Source: Ignavibacteriota bacterium | Lineage (GTDB): Bacteria; Bacteroidota; Ignavibacteria; Ignavibacteriales; Melioribacteraceae | Reading direction: 5' to 3' | Length of the DNA stretch: 64,000 nucleotides | NCBI GenBank assembly: GCA_013112585.1 | Contig: JABFGH010000010.1 | Span: forward strand, 1 to 64,000 | In this document: positions 5,793 to 62,482 of the stretch, in pieces | Layout: every line of letters begins with the position of its first letter | How positions within the stretch are numbered: position 1 is the first letter of the stretch | Notes under the pieces: generated by a model | Told to the model about the DNA's origin: nothing | Database searches by the model: none | What the model saw: only the letters and a program-made list of their open reading frames with translations | Translations under genes and position numbers: made by a program

Positions 5793-8102
5793 TTATTTCA
5801 GCAACAACATCTTGCGACTTTGAGAAAACGAACCTGCTGTTAATCTGTAAATGTATATACCGCTTGATAAAACTTTGTCTAATGATGATGCATTAAATTC
5901 AACTTCATAATTTCCGGGTGGTTTTTGTTCGTTCACAAGCACGACAATTTCATTTCCCAATATATCGTAAACAATCAGTCTCAAATTTGTGCCGTCATTA
6001 CGAGGAGTCCGTCGGCTGACGGATGACGAAGTAATCTCCGGAGATTGCTTCTCCCGAATTATCGGGATCGCAATGACAGATTCTGGAACTATAAATTTAA
6101 TTGTTGTTGTTGGATTAAACGGATTAGGATAATTTTGACTCAACTCAAAATCAAGCGGTGCTGCATCGTTTTCATCAATAGTACTGATAACACTGCCGAT
6201 TGAATATGCCAAACTTATATCATTAAAATAAATATCGTAAGTACCCGTTTGCGGAATTGTAAAAGAAATATTTGGCGCTCCGCCGGTTGTTATCTGCGCT
6301 GTTCCTGTCAGCCCTGTTGAGTTTCCCCAATCATCTCCGCTCCAATCGTTAGTGTTGGCAAATTTCATTTCGTGACCTCCGCCCAATATTTGTACATCCT
6401 CGGCAAACCAGTTTTCTCCATCAAGCTGCATCGGTATGTTCAAACTCCAGCCGGTAAAAGTACCTCCAATATACATTTGCGCTTGATGTCCGCCTGTTAC
6501 TTCAAATGATTGAACTTTAGGCATCGCCGCAAAATATGTTTCATCGCCCGATTGTTTTGCAGCAATAAATACTTTCCCATTTTGCCCTGTTAGATGAACT
6601 TGATTGTTCAAAATTACTGCTGGTCCAAATGCAGCTTCAAATTCAATTGGAAGATTGGATGTAGTGGTGGCATCTAAAGTAAAATCAGGGTCATCGTAAA
6701 CTCTATCTTCAATAGGATTAAAAGTAATATCCTGGTTCAATCTGGAATCACTTTCATTGTTTACTTTTAATATCATGCAGCTATGCGGGGGAATTTCTGC
6801 TGTGATAGTATCCATCATTCCAATTTCAGCATGCTGCCACAGGTCCCGTACTAATGCGCTGCCGGAAATTCCTAAATCGCTTAACGCAATTGTTCTCATT
6901 CGTGTTTCTTCTTCGCGATTGAAAAGTCCAACAAACCAATCACCGTTTGATAATTGCCCCGTCCAGATTTGGCTAGCCTCATCAACTGGATTGTTTGTTT
7001 GAGGCTGCCCCACAAAGCCGTCATAGTTTAACGCAAGCAATTCTTCATTTTGATAAAGCCATATATCTTCACCAATTGTGCTGTGCTGATCTGATATTGT
7101 AACCGGACCACCAGCAAATAGATGTGCAGAGATCACACTTCTTTTTTCTGAATCGGTTTCAAAAGTATTTATGCGTATAAAATCACCATCTAGCCGGACT
7201 TTATTTCTGCCTGAAATATAAGACCAGTATGTAAATCCATCAAAAGCGTTTGCGTATTGCGACCATTCATTAAATTTATGACCTCTATCTTTATCACTGA
7301 ACTTCCACCACTCACCGTATCCGGTATCTTCATTTATTCTGATCATGTGCCCGAATTGAAGTTCTAATTCTGCTTCATAAAAAAGGTTAGGCATAACCAG
7401 ACTCAAATACATTCCGTTTGAATCACATGCTTCACGCATCCATCGCAAAGCAGTTTCGTAATGTGCGCGTGGTCGGCTCACCCCAACTATTCCAAGGTAA
7501 CGGTCGTAACCGGTTTCGTACCACGAAAGAAAATCAACTCGGAAATATTTGATTCCCATATCTGCATAATATTGAATGTATCCTTTTACATATTCCTCAG
7601 CGCCGGGTCTATCAACCTGCACCCATGTAAAAAGCGAGTTTTCCGAAGTATCGATTAGAGAACTTACATTAATATTTGTGCCGACAATTTTTCTTGTTGT
7701 GTCGTTAATATCGACATGTATCCATAAGGGATTGCCGTACATGCCGAGCCGCAAGCCCCGCTGCTGCAAACAATTTGACCACCAAGCAAAATCATGCTGC
7801 CAATGAATTGAATGAGTTGATCTGTATCCGTTTTCATTATATTGGGAAACATCACCCCAGCCGTCAACGCAAATCATTTCGTAACCGTAACTTTTTAAGT
7901 TTTGATCAACCCAATTTATGTTTGCTAAAAATTCTGATTCGGGAATGTAATTATCTGCAACACCGTTTTGTTCTTTAATAATGTGGTGTTCGTAAACACT
8001 CCAATAGAGTGGGGGATTGTAAGGATTGGATTGGGGAAAAGATGCTGACGTAAATATTATGAAAAATAAACAAGTGTGAGTATGGAAAATAAATTTATTC
8101 AT
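5793..8102 (-). CDS. Secreted GH27-like alpha-galactosidase with type IX sorting domain
   Basis: A 769-residue protein with a signal peptide ending near SFPQS. Residues ~30-330 form a clan GH-D barrel resembling GH27: W-G-D-V near 82, a likely nucleophile D190 (KYFRVDF), and a candidate acid/base D259 (RINEDTGYGEWW). A beta domain runs to ~450. A putative dystroglycan-like segment and a SusE/CBM-like module (QAQMYIGGTFTGWSLNIPM, residues ~540-620) precede the C-terminal sorting domain, which starts at NYPNPFNPTTTIKF. An in-frame 84-bp palindromic repeat interrupts that domain (about residues 676-706). It is predicted to be exported by type IX secretion and anchored on the surface for galactoside breakdown. 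The exact substrate is inferred. Confidence 0.82.
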   Translation of the reverse strand: MNKFIFHTHTCLFFIIFTSASFPQSNPYNPPLYWSVYEHHIIKEQNGVADNYIPESEFLANINWVDQNLKSYGYEMICVDGWGDVSQYNENGYRSTHSIHWQHDFAWWSNCLQQRGLRLGMYGNPLWIHVDINDTTRKIVGTNINVSSLIDTSENSLFTWVQVDRPGAEEYVKGYIQYYADMGIKYFRVDFLSWYETGYDRYLGIVGVSRPRAHYETALRWMREACDSNGMYLSLVMPNLFYEAELELQFGHMIRINEDTGYGEWWKFSDKDRGHKFNEWSQYANAFDGFTYWSYISGRNKVRLDGDFIRINTFETDSEKRSVISAHLFAGGPVTISDQHSTIGEDIWLYQNEELLALNYDGFVGQPQTNNPVDEASQIWTGQLSNGDWFVGLFNREEETRMRTIALSDLGISGSALVRDLWQHAEIGMMDTITAEIPPHSCMILKVNNESDSRLNQDITFNPIEDRVYDDPDFTLDATTTSNLPIEFEAAFGPAVILNNQVHLTGQNGKVFIAAKQSGDETYFAAMPKVQSFEVTGGHQAQMYIGGTFTGWSLNIPMQLDGENWFAEDVQILGGGHEMKFANTNDWSGDDWGNSTGLTGTAQITTGGAPNISFTIPQTGTYDIYFNDISLAYSIGSVISTIDENDAAPLDFELSQNYPNPFNPTTTIKFIVPESVIAIPIIREKQSPEITSSSVSRRTPRNDGTNLRLIVYDILGNEIVVLVNEQKPPGNYEVEFNASSLDKVLSSGIYIYRLTAGSFSQSRKMLLLK
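5994..6077. repeat. 84-bp palindromic repeat inserted in frame in the sorting domain
   Basis: The element begins GTCATTACGA and ends TCGCAATGAC, near-perfect 10-bp terminal inverted repeats. Inside are nested hairpins: GTCCGTCGGCTGACGGA, AATCTCCGGAGATT and CCCGAATTATCGGG. Its length is 84 bp (28 codons), it adds no stop, and it encodes an unrelated Ser/Arg/Pro-rich loop between two strands of the sorting domain. A related element lies in intergenic DNA at 12861-12949. It resembles the non-autonomous CGTCATTGCGAGGAG-type repeats seen in many environmental genomes. Confidence 0.9.
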
Positions 8103-8175
8103 AAAAGTAATATATCAGTAAAATTAGAATATCCATTCTTAACTCCGATTTTATTTGGAATGTAAGTACAAATTT

Positions 8176-8856: not shown

Positions 8857-9271
8857 TTTAGTCCCTCACTTGTTTTATTATTGCCATATTATTAAAACAT
8901 TTATACTTGTTAAACTTGCTTTATCACTTCTTACTAAAAATGAGTCTCCACAGTAAAATCATCTAACTATAATAATTCTATACTAAAATAATGAGAATAT
9001 ATTTTTAAGATAATTTTTGTTTTTATTAATTACAATGAAGAACTATGGTAGGAGAATATGCACTTTGGAAGATTCTAACAAAATGATTTATTTGGAAAGA
9101 ATTTAACATCAACCTCTCCCTGTTTCCCTCTCCTTACTAAGGAGAGGGATTATATATAAAGGGATGGCAAATATAAAAGGCTGCAAATTAGCAGCCTCTT
9201 AATATCTTTGTATATTTTTCTCTACTTCTCTACTTCTCTACTTCTCTACGAATGTTCAATAGCTTCTAATT
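8857..9271. other. Intergenic stretch with repeat elements, no gene
   Basis: This gap separates the beta-barrel gene from the SulP gene. No coding frame with family resemblance was found. From 9110 to 9151 lies a palindromic CTCTCC...GGAGAGGG repeat (CTCTCCTTACTAAGGAGAG at its core) of the same general family as the one inside the gene at 58297. A terminator (9170-9198) and a CTCTACTT tandem tract (about 9219-9249) follow. The part before 9100 is AT-rich and probably holds the promoter of the 8176-8856 gene, which I cannot place. Confidence 0.7.
9170..9198 (-). terminator. Rho-independent terminator of the SulP gene
   Basis: Read on the minus strand, the sequence has GGCTGC, a six-base loop, GCAGCC, then TTTTATATT. 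It is downstream of the sulP stop, separated from it by a purine-rich tract of repeated GTAGAGAA words. The same hairpin and tract combination recurs behind the MoxR gene at 11094-11186. Confidence 0.75.
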
Positions 9272-57056: not shown

Positions 57057-58136
57057 ATGAACGCAATTTTTAATCTCATATCTGACAGAAGCAGCATAAT
57101 AAAAGGGCTGATAATTTTAGTCTCAATCTTTGTGTTTTTTAATTTTTTTGTTTCTAAAATCAGTGCATGCCAAAAAGTTTGGACAGGTCAAGTTGACAAT
57201 GATTGGTCAACTGCTGAAAACTGGTGTCCATCCGGCATACCCGATTCAAATTCACATGTTGTAATACCATATCTTATTAATAACGATTACCCGGTTATTA
57301 ATGATGATAATGTAACTATAAAAAAACTAACCGTAAGCTGGGGTGCTCAGCTAAATATTGAATCTATAAATTTAACTGTTACAAAATTATTCAAAGTTAG
57401 GAGATGGGCTGTTGTAAATCAATACGGAGCAGTAGTAAATGTAAGACATCTGCTGATACAGAAAGGGGGAGTGTATAACATTTACGACGGCGTGCTGGAT
57501 ATTATAGATAAACTTAATGATAAAGGAACATTAAATCATCATGGCGGTGATGTTACTGTTGGCGGCGAACCGCTTCCGGTTGAATTAGTTTCATTTACAT
57601 ACTATGTTGTAAATAATGGTGTTGTGCTTAATTGGAAAACTGCTACCGAAATTAATAACTACGGTTTTGAAATTGAAAAATCAATAGATAACAATAAATG
57701 GGAAAATATTGGTTTCGTTCAAGGTAACGGAAATAGTAACTCACCAAAAATTTATAGTTTTACTGATAAAAACTTAAATTCAAAACAACTTTATTATCGA
57801 CTAATTCAAATAGATAATGACGGTACGGTAGAACAGTTGGAAACAGTTGAAGTTGCATACAATGGTAAATTAAATGGATTTGAGTTAGAGCAGAATTATC
57901 CTAATCCATTTAACCCAACAACTGTAATTAAATACAGCATTCCCGAAGCATCAAATGTACAAATTAAAGTTTATGATATGCTTGGCGGCGAAGTTGCAAG
58001 TTTAGTTAACGAAGTTAAAGAAGCCGGAACGCATGAAGTTGGTTTTGATGCAACTGAATTATCAAGCGGAATTTACATTTACTCAATTCAGTCGGGCAAT
58101 TTTGTACAAACAATGAAAATGACACTCCTGAGGTAG
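57057..58136 (+). CDS. Secreted protein with type IX sorting domain
   Basis: A 359-residue protein with an N-terminal hydrophobic segment (GLIILVSIFVFFNFFV) that is probably a signal peptide. A repeated beta-helix-like N-terminal part (HVVIPYLINN, VTIKKLTVSWGAQLNIESI) is followed by a fibronectin-like domain from VELVSFTYYVVNNG and a C-terminal sorting domain from NYPNPFNPTTVIKYSIPEAS to GIYIYSIQSG. The sorting domain here has no repeat insert. The cargo role is unknown. Confidence 0.85.
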   Translation: MNAIFNLISDRSSIIKGLIILVSIFVFFNFFVSKISACQKVWTGQVDNDWSTAENWCPSGIPDSNSHVVIPYLINNDYPVINDDNVTIKKLTVSWGAQLNIESINLTVTKLFKVRRWAVVNQYGAVVNVRHLLIQKGGVYNIYDGVLDIIDKLNDKGTLNHHGGDVTVGGEPLPVELVSFTYYVVNNGVVLNWKTATEINNYGFEIEKSIDNNKWENIGFVQGNGNSNSPKIYSFTDKNLNSKQLYYRLIQIDNDGTVEQLETVEVAYNGKLNGFELEQNYPNPFNPTTVIKYSIPEASNVQIKVYDMLGGEVASLVNEVKEAGTHEVGFDATELSSGIYIYSIQSGNFVQTMKMTLLR

Positions 58137-58296: not shown

Positions 58297-60027
58297 ATGA
58301 TGAACAAATTTATTTTAAGTATTAGTGTAATTACTGCTGCTCTAGTAATGCTTTCATTTACAAATACAAACTCCTCAAGTAATACTACCGATACAATATT
58401 TACTCCTGAGGTATTAGACCCGCAGGGAAATGGTGATGCAAAAGCATTGGCGGATATTGATGGTGACGGGACGATGGATCCCATATTAGGCGGCTCAAAT
58501 TTGGGCTGGTATATGAAAGACAGTTCATGGAATTATTATAGTATTATTGCAAGTCCTCCTTATCAAGAGTTTAGTACCGATATGCAGGCAGAAGATATTG
58601 ACGGCGATGGCGACCCTGATATAATTGTAGGGGATGCAGGCGGAATTAATAACCTGCTCTGGTTTGAGAATCCAAGAATTAATCCTCCTGCGGGCAGCGG
58701 CAGTGACCCTCGAATTGCAGCTAATTGGGTTTATCATGTAATTGGTACACACGGAGATTGGGTGCATGATATTGAAATTGGTGATCTTGATAATGATGGC
58801 AAATTAGATGTTGTTTCAAGCGGGCATGGGCATACACATGTTTGGAAAAATAATCTTCCCTCCGCTTGGTTAGACATTCCGCTGCAGAATGCAGGCAAAG
58901 GAATATCTATAGGAGATATAAATAAAAACGGCAGAGCAGATATAGCAATTCCGAACGGCTGGTTCGATACACCCGTGTCATTAGCAGCCGGTACATGGAA
59001 TTTTTACCAAATAGATGTCGGCACAGCGAAAGACGAAGTATTATTAATGGATGTTAACGGCGATAACAATTTAGATTTAGTAACAATTGATGCGCACAAT
59101 AGAGATGAGTTTGCCTGGTTTCAAGCCCCGCTGGATCCTACCTCATCAACATGGACAAAAACTATAATTGACGGATCAATGGGGGCACACAAACTTGAAG
59201 CAGCAGATTTTAATAATGATGGGTTTGCTGATATTTTAGCCGGTCTAGAATTGAGTGAATTAAGTATCTATTTCAATTCTGCTGATTCCATGGGGGTTTT
59301 TACAAAACAGCAGATTGATACAAAAGCAGCTCATAATGCAAGGGCAGGAGATATTGATAATGATGGAGATATAGATGTGTTCGGCGCAGATTATATAAAC
59401 CATCCGCCCGCGCTTGTTTATATAAACGAAAGTGCTATTCCGGTTGAACTGACAAGTTTTTCATTCAATATTGTTGAGGGCAAAATTATTCTGAACTGGA
59501 CTACTGCTACGGAAATTAACAACTCACATTTTATTGTTCAAAGGGGCAATGACAAATTTAGCTTTACTGATATTGGTAGAGTAGAAGGCAATGGCACAAC
59601 AACGGAAATATCAAATTATAGCTACCAGGATATTTCAGCGGAAGATGGAATTTATTTTTATAGATTAAAACAAGTTGACTACGATGGATCATTTAGTTAT
59701 TCAAACAAGATTGAAGTTGATTTAATTCAGCCTCTCGAATTAAGCCTGCAGCAAAACTACCCAAATCCATTTAACCCAACAACGACTATAAAATATCAAA
59801 TACCGCCTACAAAAACTCTCCTCTCGAGAGGGGTTGGGGGTGTGTCCATAGCCTTAAAAGTATTTGATGTAATAGGAAGAGAAATAGCAACCCTAGTAAA
59901 CGAAAGGCAAAAGCCCGGTAATTATGAAGTTGTTTGGGACGCTTCTGAGTTTAGCAGCGGTGTATATTTCTATCGCCTTGATGCCGGTGATTATTTTGAA
60001 TCTAAAAAAATGATTCTTTTAAAATAA
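58297..60027 (+). CDS. Secreted FG-GAP/VCBS-repeat protein with type IX sorting domain
   Basis: A 576-residue protein; ATG 58297 or 58300 starts it. A signal peptide (FILSISVITAALVMLSF) precedes about six FG-GAP/VCBS-like repeats with Asp-rich calcium-binding loops (ADIDGDGTMDPI, EDIDGDGDPDIIVGDAGG, GDIDNDGDIDVFG). A fibronectin-like domain follows (VELTSFSFNIVEG), then the sorting domain from NYPNPFNPTTTIKYQIP. An 11-codon in-frame insert (TKTLLSRGVGG) from an intergenic-type repeat interrupts it. Function of the repeats is unknown. Confidence 0.85.
   Translation: MMNKFILSISVITAALVMLSFTNTNSSSNTTDTIFTPEVLDPQGNGDAKALADIDGDGTMDPILGGSNLGWYMKDSSWNYYSIIASPPYQEFSTDMQAEDIDGDGDPDIIVGDAGGINNLLWFENPRINPPAGSGSDPRIAANWVYHVIGTHGDWVHDIEIGDLDNDGKLDVVSSGHGHTHVWKNNLPSAWLDIPLQNAGKGISIGDINKNGRADIAIPNGWFDTPVSLAAGTWNFYQIDVGTAKDEVLLMDVNGDNNLDLVTIDAHNRDEFAWFQAPLDPTSSTWTKTIIDGSMGAHKLEAADFNNDGFADILAGLELSELSIYFNSADSMGVFTKQQIDTKAAHNARAGDIDNDGDIDVFGADYINHPPALVYINESAIPVELTSFSFNIVEGKIILNWTTATEINNSHFIVQRGNDKFSFTDIGRVEGNGTTTEISNYSYQDISAEDGIYFYRLKQVDYDGSFSYSNKIEVDLIQPLELSLQQNYPNPFNPTTTIKYQIPPTKTLLSRGVGGVSIALKVFDVIGREIATLVNERQKPGNYEVVWDASEFSSGVYFYRLDAGDYFESKKMILLK
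59815..59844. repeat. CTCTCC...GAGAGGGG-type repeat inside a coding sequence
   Basis: ACTCTCCTCTCGAGAGGGGT and the following TGGGGGTG are in frame in the sorting domain of the 58297 gene. A related element is intergenic at 9110-9151. The insert lies between the same two strands where the 84-bp repeat lies in the glycosidase gene. Confidence 0.8.
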
Positions 60028-60050: not shown

Positions 60051-60080
60051 AAAGCCGGTTCGATGCCGGCTTTGTTATTT
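60051..60080. terminator. Bidirectional terminator between convergent genes
   Basis: AAAGCCGG (60051-60058) and CCGGCTTT (60066-60073) around a seven-base loop, with A- and T-rich flanks on both sides. It lies between the plus-strand 58297 gene and the minus-strand gene ending at 60075. Confidence 0.8.
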
Positions 60081-62213
60081 TATTAAAACCAGTTTTATTG
60101 TATTGCTAAATTTCCCTGCTTCAATTCGGCAAAAATAAATGCCTGTACTAAGCTCTGTCGCATTAAGAGAAACGGATTGATTGCCAGCAGCAAATTCCCG
60201 GTTAAGTAATTCTGTTACTTTTTCGCCAAGGGAATTATACAAAGACATTTTAACAGCCGATCTTTCCGGAAGAGAAAAATTAATCATCGTCGAAGAATTG
60301 AAAGGGTTGGGGTAGCTTGTTAAACTGAAATGAGTTGGAATCTCAGTTCCGGCATCTTTAATAGATGTTACATCCGGCGGAGTTCTTTTGAATACACCTT
60401 TATCCGTTCCGAGAAGTAATTTGTTGTTTGAATGACTGTAGAAAATTGATAGTGTTTTTACCTGCGGTAAGCCTTCACTAAATGCAGTATATGATAATCC
60501 CATATCGGATGAATAATATATTTCCGTTGGTGTCGCTGCATAAAGAACATTTGAACTATCAATTGCAATATCAACTACATCATTTCCAGAAAATCCTTGA
60601 AAAGACCAGACGGTATCCATTTCGTTTCGAAAATAAATACCCTCTGAAGTTGAAAGGTAATGATTATTATTTAAGTCTGACCGAATTTTATAAAAAACAA
60701 AATTACTGTAGGTAGGAAAACCTTGCTTAAACTTGCCAAATGACTCACCTCCATTAGTGCTGCGGTAAATATAATCAACCATATCGGAGACATTGAAACC
60801 AAGGAAATAAATATTGTGATGAGAATCTTTATTTAAAAAGTTTATAAATGCATATTCAAGCCCGCTAACTGGTTTTGGTAACCAGGTTGATCCGAAATCT
60901 GTTGACACATAAAGACCGCTATAAAAAGGAGGACCCCAATTCGGATCATATTCAAATAAATTGGCGAAGAGAGTATTATTTATAGTAGCTGCCAAAGAAG
61001 TCCATGTTGTGGTGGGGAGGGTATTGGTATTCCAAGTTGTTATACCATCCACTGAGTAAAATAAGACGTTGCTGTATGTACTAAAAATATAATCGTTGGA
61101 AGAAGTTATTGCCGAAGTAGACAATTTTCTCAGTCCATCCGGTGTTATCCAGTCCAACCCTCCATTTTCGGAGTAAAAGATTCCTCTTTTTGTAGCAGTG
61201 TAAATTTTATCGGAGTATTCATGAAAACTTGTAACTTCAATATCAATAATCCCATCATCGAAAAAAATTATTGAATTGGAATCTACTTTAATTAGACTTT
61301 CACCTGTTGCCAGAAGCAATGATTCTTGAAATGGGATCAGTTTATAAACATATAAATAATTAGCTTGAAGATTATAGCTGAACCATGATTCACCGGCATC
61401 AGTTGTTAAATATACTCCGGTGTCTGAACCTGCATAAATTACAGAATCACTAACGGCATATAAATCTTTAATCTTACAGTTTGCAGGAAGTCCACCATTG
61501 CTTGGAAGCCAGCTTAAGCCATAATTTGTTGAGCGGTAAACTCCTCTTATTGTTCCCACAAAAATATCATCGTAGGAATTTACAAATACAGAAGTAATGC
61601 CTTGGCTTTCCGGTAAACCAGAATTTTTTATTTCCCAAGTGGTTCCGTTATCTGTTGATATCAAAACACCGCTGTGTGATCCAACAATCCAAATACTATC
61701 ATTATTTGCAAATCCAACTTCACCGACCGAACCCGCATCACATCCAAATTCAATTGTACGCCATGTATTGCCTAAGTCAGTTGAAACTGATAAATCATCA
61801 CAAGAATACCATCCAAGATGGAAAATATGATTTGAACTATTAATTGATAGACTACCATATGAAAGACCTAAACTAGTCCATGTTTTTCCAGCATCAGTTG
61901 ATCTTAAAGTGCCGCGACCCATTGAAGAACAATAAATCAAGCTGTCGTTGATAATAAGTATTCCAGGAAAGCCATAGTTACCAGCCGAATTACTTTTACC
62001 CCACAATTCTTCCCAACTGGCATTTATGTTTTCCCTTTTATAAAGTGAACCATCTTGTAAACCGGCAAAAAGAGTTCCGTTAGGTGATTTTGCAATATTG
62101 CGTATATCACCGCCATACATAGGTCCGGTAGGCTGCCATTGATCCTGAGCATTAATTGATACGAAGATAGAAATAAGAATTGTGAGCAGAAGAAATTTTT
62201 TGCCAATTTGCAT
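60075..62213 (-). CDS. Secreted beta-propeller/BNR-repeat protein with type IX sorting domain
   Basis: I choose ATG 62213 (712 residues), because GGAGG lies 4 nt before it and the upstream 22 codons of the longer frame would put a hydrophilic tail before the signal peptide (FLLLTILISIFVSINAQ). The body is a series of STDGGxTW-like repeats (STDLGNTWR, STDNGTTWE, STNYGLSW, STDAGESWFS), forming BNR/photosystem-assembly-like propellers. A sorting domain starts at SYPNPFNSSTMINF and ends in GIYFCRIEAGK. Function unknown. Confidence 0.85.
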   Translation of the reverse strand: MQIGKKFLLLTILISIFVSINAQDQWQPTGPMYGGDIRNIAKSPNGTLFAGLQDGSLYKRENINASWEELWGKSNSAGNYGFPGILIINDSLIYCSSMGRGTLRSTDAGKTWTSLGLSYGSLSINSSNHIFHLGWYSCDDLSVSTDLGNTWRTIEFGCDAGSVGEVGFANNDSIWIVGSHSGVLISTDNGTTWEIKNSGLPESQGITSVFVNSYDDIFVGTIRGVYRSTNYGLSWLPSNGGLPANCKIKDLYAVSDSVIYAGSDTGVYLTTDAGESWFSYNLQANYLYVYKLIPFQESLLLATGESLIKVDSNSIIFFDDGIIDIEVTSFHEYSDKIYTATKRGIFYSENGGLDWITPDGLRKLSTSAITSSNDYIFSTYSNVLFYSVDGITTWNTNTLPTTTWTSLAATINNTLFANLFEYDPNWGPPFYSGLYVSTDFGSTWLPKPVSGLEYAFINFLNKDSHHNIYFLGFNVSDMVDYIYRSTNGGESFGKFKQGFPTYSNFVFYKIRSDLNNNHYLSTSEGIYFRNEMDTVWSFQGFSGNDVVDIAIDSSNVLYAATPTEIYYSSDMGLSYTAFSEGLPQVKTLSIFYSHSNNKLLLGTDKGVFKRTPPDVTSIKDAGTEIPTHFSLTSYPNPFNSSTMINFSLPERSAVKMSLYNSLGEKVTELLNREFAAGNQSVSLNATELSTGIYFCRIEAGKFSNTIKLVLIK

Positions 62214-62482
62214 GCATCCTCCGATGACTATTGACTTACCCTTAATATTGTTTATAACTATTATACAGTTATTCCACAAAACAAAAATACAAATAGTTCT
62301 ACTTAATGTAAATTTGGTTTTGAAAATTGTGTTTTGAATATTGATTTGTTACAGATTGGTTTTCAATAAAATTCAAAAAGTGAATCTGTTAGTTTTAACA
62401 AAAAAGATGATTCTTTTTGAATAATTAATATGAAAATATTTGAATAATTGGGCGGACAAACTTTGCCCGCCCCACTAAAATA

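Follow-up and report, generated by a model that had tools for sequence, protein, structure and literature searches.

Introduction

The Rickettsia palindromic elements described by Ogata and co-workers are units of about 150 bp that encode a conserved peptide inside unrelated genes (PMC10969869). Intragenic REPs of the GTAG and CGTC types sit in open reading frames of varied host genes, many of them repair genes; it has been suggested that REPs inserted into flexible linkers or loops may be neutral, and two Xanthomonas recB genes are reported to carry different REPs at roughly one position (PMC3733652). Palindromes in genes have so far been scattered cases. Here we describe a single loop that took up many repeat families, in relatives of the source bacterium too; the domain to which it belongs is present about 200 times in one genome.

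The domain in question is the C-terminal sorting domain of the type IX secretion system (T9SS). The beta3-beta4 loop and the C-terminus of RgpB are described as essential for export, and an 11-residue replacement in its beta5-beta6 loop as leaving export normal; the beta2-beta3 loop is extended in mirolase and deviates between structures (PMC11285876). Cleavage of the T9SS domain by PorU is reported to be sequence-independent (PMC4804311); in Porphyromonas gingivalis export is followed by removal of the entire domain. A search of the open-licence PubMed Central literature by titles and beginnings of abstracts found no report of repeats linked to T9SS sorting domains.

Overall structure of the target domain

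The window, i.e. the whole stretch of DNA analysed, comprises 64,000 nucleotides of an Ignavibacteriota bacterium (contig JABFGH010000010.1). The target open reading frame (58297..60027, forward strand) codes for a 576-residue FG-GAP repeat protein (PF13517, E 9.6e-27) with a C-terminal T9SS sorting domain. In the profile search TIGR04183 matches residues 488–573 of 576 with 35.6 bits (cut-off 23) and PF18962 scores 35.3 (cut-off 27), i.e. the type A profile lies above its cut-off and at the C-terminus. The sorting domain extends from PNPFNP to the last codon (59761..60024, forward strand, 88 residues). AlphaFold2 predicts a six-stranded sandwich, which is kept with the insert (mean pLDDT 85.6, with 71 for the block 21–30). 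In the fold comparison T9SS domains do not stand out from other Ig-like sandwiches: the Z-scores for PorU (7.6) and mirolase (7.2) are level with those of unrelated sandwiches, and Foldseek returned no match at E 0.001 or better, with the mirolase domain at rank 4 (E 7.2e-3).

The loop carrying the insert (59806..59853, forward strand; 48 nt coding for the 16 residues PTKTLLSRGVGGVSIA) is flanked by the strands TIKYQIP and LKVFDVIG and forms the turn before the strand leading into the conserved D-x-x-G motif. Judging by this motif, FDVIGRE would be the counterpart of F-D-M-N-G-R-R in the beta3-beta4 loop of RgpB, which would place the insert in beta2-beta3 and make SVSRR the beta5-beta6 loop. 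Two sorting domains close by served as controls with insert-free loops of six residues, one in the neighbouring gene 57057–58136 (loop 57945..57962, forward strand) and one in the gene 60075–62279 (loop 60249..60266, reverse strand).

Palindromic repeats in the loop

The first-pass annotation had placed an element at 59815–59844, in frame between TIKYQIP and LKVFDVIG, and the open reading frame indeed reads ACTCTCCTCTCGAGAGGGGTTGGGGGTGTG there. These 30 bases are part of a longer, 38-nt copy of a palindromic repeat (59808..59845, reverse strand) whose family, A, is found between genes as well. The copy consists of one outer arm and the central palindrome and is the reverse complement of the intergenic copies on contig C7 (ACACACCCCTAAATCCCCTCTCGAGAGGGGACTTTTTGTA; 88% over query positions 19–56, E 1.2e-6 in the whole-genome search). 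Contig C38 has a more complete intergenic copy, ACACACCCCTTTAGTCCCCTCTCGAGAGGGGATTTAGGGGTGTGT, in which both outer arms are present; in the same spacer a glycosidase-type element is seen by eye a few dozen bases away.

The hairpin of the target copy is eroded. Its fold as single-strand DNA has a z-score of −0.33 (61 of 200 shuffles are equally good), and the C38 copy folds end to end with a z-score of −6.92. The perfect palindrome left in the target, CCTCTCGAGAGG (59820..59831), is by itself not significant against shuffles (p 0.07). It is through family membership, not through its present stem, that the target repeat is recognised. A chance palindrome was ruled out because the target copy and the intergenic units match over ~38 nt. 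The core of family A, TCCCCTCTCGAGAGGGGA, occurs at 11 places of the genome at up to 3 mismatches (11+11, the palindrome being counted once per strand), and the same pattern read backwards gives 1+1 places.

The second insert of the window belongs to a glycosidase-type frame of 773 codons (5793..8114, reverse strand; PF17801, E 4.1e-20). Its sorting domain (5796–6128, reverse strand) matches TIGR04183 with 27.5 bits (cut-off 23) and PF18962 with 24.1, under the cut-off of 27. The loop has 35 residues (5979..6083, reverse strand) and contains a repeat of family D (ATTGCG..AATGAC), unrelated to that of the target and inserted at the same place. Two different repeat families thus occupy one structural position, as the first-pass annotation had stated. 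Matches of the glycosidase-type repeat also cluster at C21:85185–85510 and C1:48600–48916, three of those on C21 being spaced by 139 bp.

A second loop, the one preceding SG-x-Y, holds a 16-bp palindrome in frame in 14 of the 173 domains surveyed; this palindrome, TCCGTCAGCCGACGGA, is present in the glycosidase insert as well. Eight copies are exact (L008, L009, L043, L089:16946, L090:11683, L129:15968, L130 and L153) and six are altered (L010, L090:14229, L115, L123:19090, L138 and L167). Elsewhere in the window, positions 127–674 hold a tandem array with a period of ~213 bp, composed of CGCAAAG-type and TTTCAC-type repeats.

Length of the loop in other sorting domains

The genome (4.94 Mb, 77 contigs) has 200 NPFNP-coding sites and at least 150 TIGR04183 matches (150 of 241 candidates scored). 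The survey covers 173 distinct sorting domains, a part of the genome's total. The loop has six residues in 133 of them, 7–9 in 5 and 11–35 in 35. Since some domains had been picked through insert searches (L003 and L005 by the target stretch, L066 by the glycosidase stretch), the count was repeated on the first 100 listed NPFNP places, unselected for inserts. Here 95 places were measurable, with six residues in 68 and a longer loop in 27, of which 25 have at least 11 residues. The map of loops proposed by the first-pass annotation shows a sharp default of six residues (133 of 173). A continuous range of loop lengths unrelated to repeats, which that annotation had named as the case against its idea, is not seen in the 173 domains; it was rejected on the sharp default of six followed mainly by 11–35.

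A majority of the long loops tested as repeat-derived. Among loops of at least 11 residues, 19 of 35 matched intergenic DNA (147 kb sampled); among those of six residues, 5 of 133 did so (Fisher p 1.8e-11). When whole domains were matched, 20% of bases in the loop were covered, and outside it there was a background of 5–7%; this background, which probably comes from undetected domain remnants, is the reason why the comparison of long with six-residue loops is relied upon. Counting an intergenic match or a palindrome significant against shuffles (p ≤ 0.01), 25 of 40 long loops are repeat-derived and 15 passed neither test. The palindrome test was positive for 2 of 133 six-residue loops, which served as its control.

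Perfect palindromes (stem of at least 8, loop of up to 8) were counted in 685 kb of the genome. The sorting-domain loop has 13 of them in 4,080 nt and the remaining domain has 1 in 38,118 nt; other open reading frames have 18 in 514,404 nt, and the DNA outside reading frames has 88 in 128,614 nt. The loop is ~90 times denser in palindromes than other reading frames (Poisson p 1e-21); some of the 13 are near-copies, and with the six distinct ones counted once each p is 9e-9.

At least five families, all assigned by eye, are present in the loops of this genome. Family A is composed of ACACACCCCT with CCCCTCTCGAGAGGGG, and family B of ACCTCACCCT with CCCTCTCC..GGAGAGGG; both have outer inverted arms and lack coding capacity of their own. 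The further families are D, GTAG-tagged palindromes, whose stems are of four or more kinds, and simple repeats of the GTGAAAGG type. An intergenic copy of family B lies in the window at 9108..9152 (reverse strand), and the same repeat is found in eight sorting-domain loops of the genome. Core A is in the loop at 4 of 11 places (target, L003, L005 and L107) and core B at 6 of 12. Taken together, 10 of the 23 places of the two cores are in the loop, and the other 13 are in no open frame of more than 136 codons. The GTAG core has 12 places: 3 in the loop (on C2, C7:40475 and C9), 1 in a decayed sorting domain (C7:38869) and 8 unclassified. These data support the first-pass suggestion of a loop that either tolerates insertions or is a hotspot for them: many long loops are repeat-derived, and several unrelated families share the position.

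Reading frames and entry points

Family A is read in two frames and the CCCCCTTT family in three. This bears on the explanation that the inserts are kept for a function, be it the peptide, an RNA hairpin or diversification of the signal. Such a function would fit the commonness of inserts in the genome (27 of 95 unselected sites) and their presence in many relatives. It is at odds with the different peptides given by one family in different frames, with the eroded hairpin of the target and with the absence of an insert from most domains, and we consider it very unlikely.

The GTAG units in loops (L034, L069, L315, L327, L337, L347 and others) are read as GTA-Gxx wherever seen; the phase xGT-AGx is open for some of them and none was seen in it. 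The uniform phase could be due to a fixed entry point or to selection acting on the peptide. Most long loops have the entry close behind the IP codons. Family B is shifted by two codons in L111 and L151 relative to L124, L097 and L114. By eye, neither a common target word nor a consistent target-site duplication is seen in the loop flanks.

These features bear on targeted insertion, in which a target word, conserved flanks or a structure at the loop DNA would attract the elements and make the loop a true hotspot. In its favour are the uniform phase of GTAG units, the entry behind the IP codons and the crowding of copies into a single loop when there must be other linkers able to tolerate them. 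Against it stand the sharing of one place by unrelated families whose ends differ, the two-codon shift of family B and the lack, by eye, of a common target word or consistent duplication. Targeted insertion appears rather doubtful to us. We also hold it unlikely that the loop is a true landing pad entered preferentially at a fixed phase, with the secretion-signal family as a continually diversified coding reservoir of REP-like elements.

Repeat inserts also occupy this loop in two sorting domains that are decayed and frameshifted (L118:641–960 on C8 and C7:38640–38990). Both had been considered as cases of out-of-frame insertion proving later selection (L118 and C7:38929). This was rejected: in each of them the insert shares its phase with the downstream half, and the frameshift is upstream of the insert.

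Some repeats lie within repeats. A CCTGTC..GGCAGGCAGG-type unit is central in larger palindromes (L097:2556, L114:10111 and L124:2109). The nested unit of L097 and L114, a family-B case, recurs in the same setting between genes (L121:9199–9270).

Movement of the units and relations of the domains

In five domains with family-B1 inserts the loops are 90–100% identical (ten pairs), and the remaining domains 71–79%. GTAG-C loops (67–82%) are no more similar than their domains (70–81%), so that they are either older or co-inherited. In the 15 nt beside the loop, identity is 0.69 for same-family against 0.63 for different-family pairs upstream and 0.78 against 0.74 downstream, with no consistent difference farther out. 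Long conversion tracts were rejected, the rise being slight and confined to the nearest 15 nt.

A quick tree was built without the loop (173 rows, 72 columns) and is poorly resolved. On it the 35 insert-bearers require 13 changes, against 32 when shuffled, and 32 of the 35 fall in one weakly supported group of 51 rows (support 80). Well-supported branches force only one change of state, so on these alone a single origin is allowed. In the target's group of 8 (SH-aLRT 92) no further domain bears an insert, and the remaining seven loops have six residues.

Another explanation would be that few insertions were spread by recombination (duplication or short-tract conversion) among the ~200 paralogous sorting domains, the hotspot being only apparent. 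Clustering on the tree, the identical 54-nt loops of L111 and L151, the slight rise of identity beside the loop and GTAG-C loops as diverged as their domains are in line with such spread. It accounts poorly for at least five families in several frames, for the lone insert of the target within its group and for family B, where identity falls at once outside the unit. Recombination spread is, in our estimate, quite unlikely.

An orthologous empty site was not found: the cargo half of the target has matches in 0 of 145 other genomes at E 1e-30, and the genus-level search covered one genome, the source genome itself. The genome has eight Y1_Tnp matches. The palindromes in seven stretches around these eight genes belong, by eye, to other families, and none of the eight genes could be picked out by eye as a dedicated transposase. 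Palindromes preceded by ATAG (e.g. CTATGGATGAAATCCATAG) surround several of the Y1 transposase genes (L215, L216 and L218) and look like REP families of their own.

The loop in related bacteria

The scan of a named genome collection gave 80 loci, picked by likeness to the insert-free domain and thus biased against inserts; longer loops are found in 12 of its 141 domains, among them an inverted GTAG pair in Chlorobiota M_MetaBat.23, TCCCCCTTTATTAAAGGGGGA in Ignavibacteriaceae Prado070 and GTAGGGACGGGGCATGCCCCGTCC in Ignavibacteriae NC_groundwater_1713. In genomes of the family, where long or high-scoring matches were picked, 62 of 73 domains measured long, a count that includes L351:1196, mis-measured and truly of six residues; two L354 rows among the 73 duplicate a contig of M_MetaBat.23. 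A recognisable repeat was seen by eye in 16 of 29 other genomes read. In the relatives as a whole, the same loop holds further repeat families and several reading frames.

In genome G041, of another genus, the loop reads STQTPLLRGVGGVLTT, with the same element, frame and orientation as PTKTLLSRGVGGVSIA of the target, and the two domains are 65% identical outside the loop. Two neighbouring genes on one strand of G041 (L355:5624–6943 and L355:6956–9514) have C-terminal sorting domains whose loops at this position contain unlike repeats. One loop has family A and the other has family D, which is the combination found in the window.

Origin of the inserts

The identity of loop inserts with intergenic copies, their discrete ends, the presence of several families in more than one reading frame and the strong concentration in one loop are observed directly. 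Most probably, though with considerable reserve, short palindromic units of several families were inserted many times, and those that kept the frame survived in a peripheral loop by tolerance. REP- or MITE-like units, mostly intergenic, would insert repeatedly; copies in coding DNA would be rare, and frame-preserving ones would persist in one type IX sorting-domain loop, which lies peripherally with respect to those signal regions for which recognition is established. With such a loop, in a domain that is removed after export in P. gingivalis, a foreign peptide should cost little. Cleavage in the source organism and an enzyme moving the units are presumed here. The sequence data support repeated arrival of discrete palindromic units and their apparent survival in one peripheral loop, and suggest that this loop is an exceptionally safe site for palindromic DNA to land in.

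Several results count against this reading. Tolerance alone predicts copies in linkers of other proteins, and cores A and B have none in a long gene. Clustering of insert-bearing domains on the quick tree counts against many independent insertions. The uniform phase of GTAG units, which could mean a fixed entry point, GTAG-C loops no more similar than their domains, the slight identity rise beside the loop, the failure to find an orthologous empty site or matching palindromes at the Y1 genes, and 15 of 40 long loops with no repeat by test weigh in the same direction.

The inserts amount to a natural insertion scan of a secretion signal, which points to a dispensable part of the T9SS domain, and they offer a system for counting the movement of REP-like elements and testing their choice of site. 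Annotators should read SPYQGEG, VETLHATSLQ and similar peptides of secreted proteins as repeats that are otherwise intergenic.

Comparison with known systems

Like the Rickettsia elements, the target repeat is palindromic and read in frame inside a gene. It differs in size and coding: the target copy has 38 nt instead of ~150 bp, and family A is read in two frames rather than as one conserved peptide. More generally, the units here are mostly of ~38–55 nt, belong to several unrelated families, use more than one frame and occupy one loop of one domain family.

Several loops resemble GTAG REPs in carrying GTAG-tagged palindromes (e.g. L034, L069, L315, L327 and L337), and the copies differ from those REPs by crowding into one loop of a large paralogous family of signal domains. 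The target repeat itself has no GTAG tag in the target, C7 or C38 copies, and an association with RAYT was not seen, the palindromes at Y1_Tnp loci of the genome being different (7 stretches, by eye). Families A and B recall MITEs by their terminal inverted arms, complete in the C38 copy and reduced to one outer arm in the target; by eye, no matching ends are seen at the Y1 transposases and no consistent target duplication at the loop flanks.

On the protein side, loops of T9SS C-terminal domains are described as varying widely in length save beta3-beta4 (PMC11285876), as is the case here; repeats are tied to the loop only in the present data, the relevant parts of that paper drawing no such link. 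Palindromic repeats inside genes are thus a known kind of element, and within the literature searched the new part is their concentration in one loop of a secretion-signal family.
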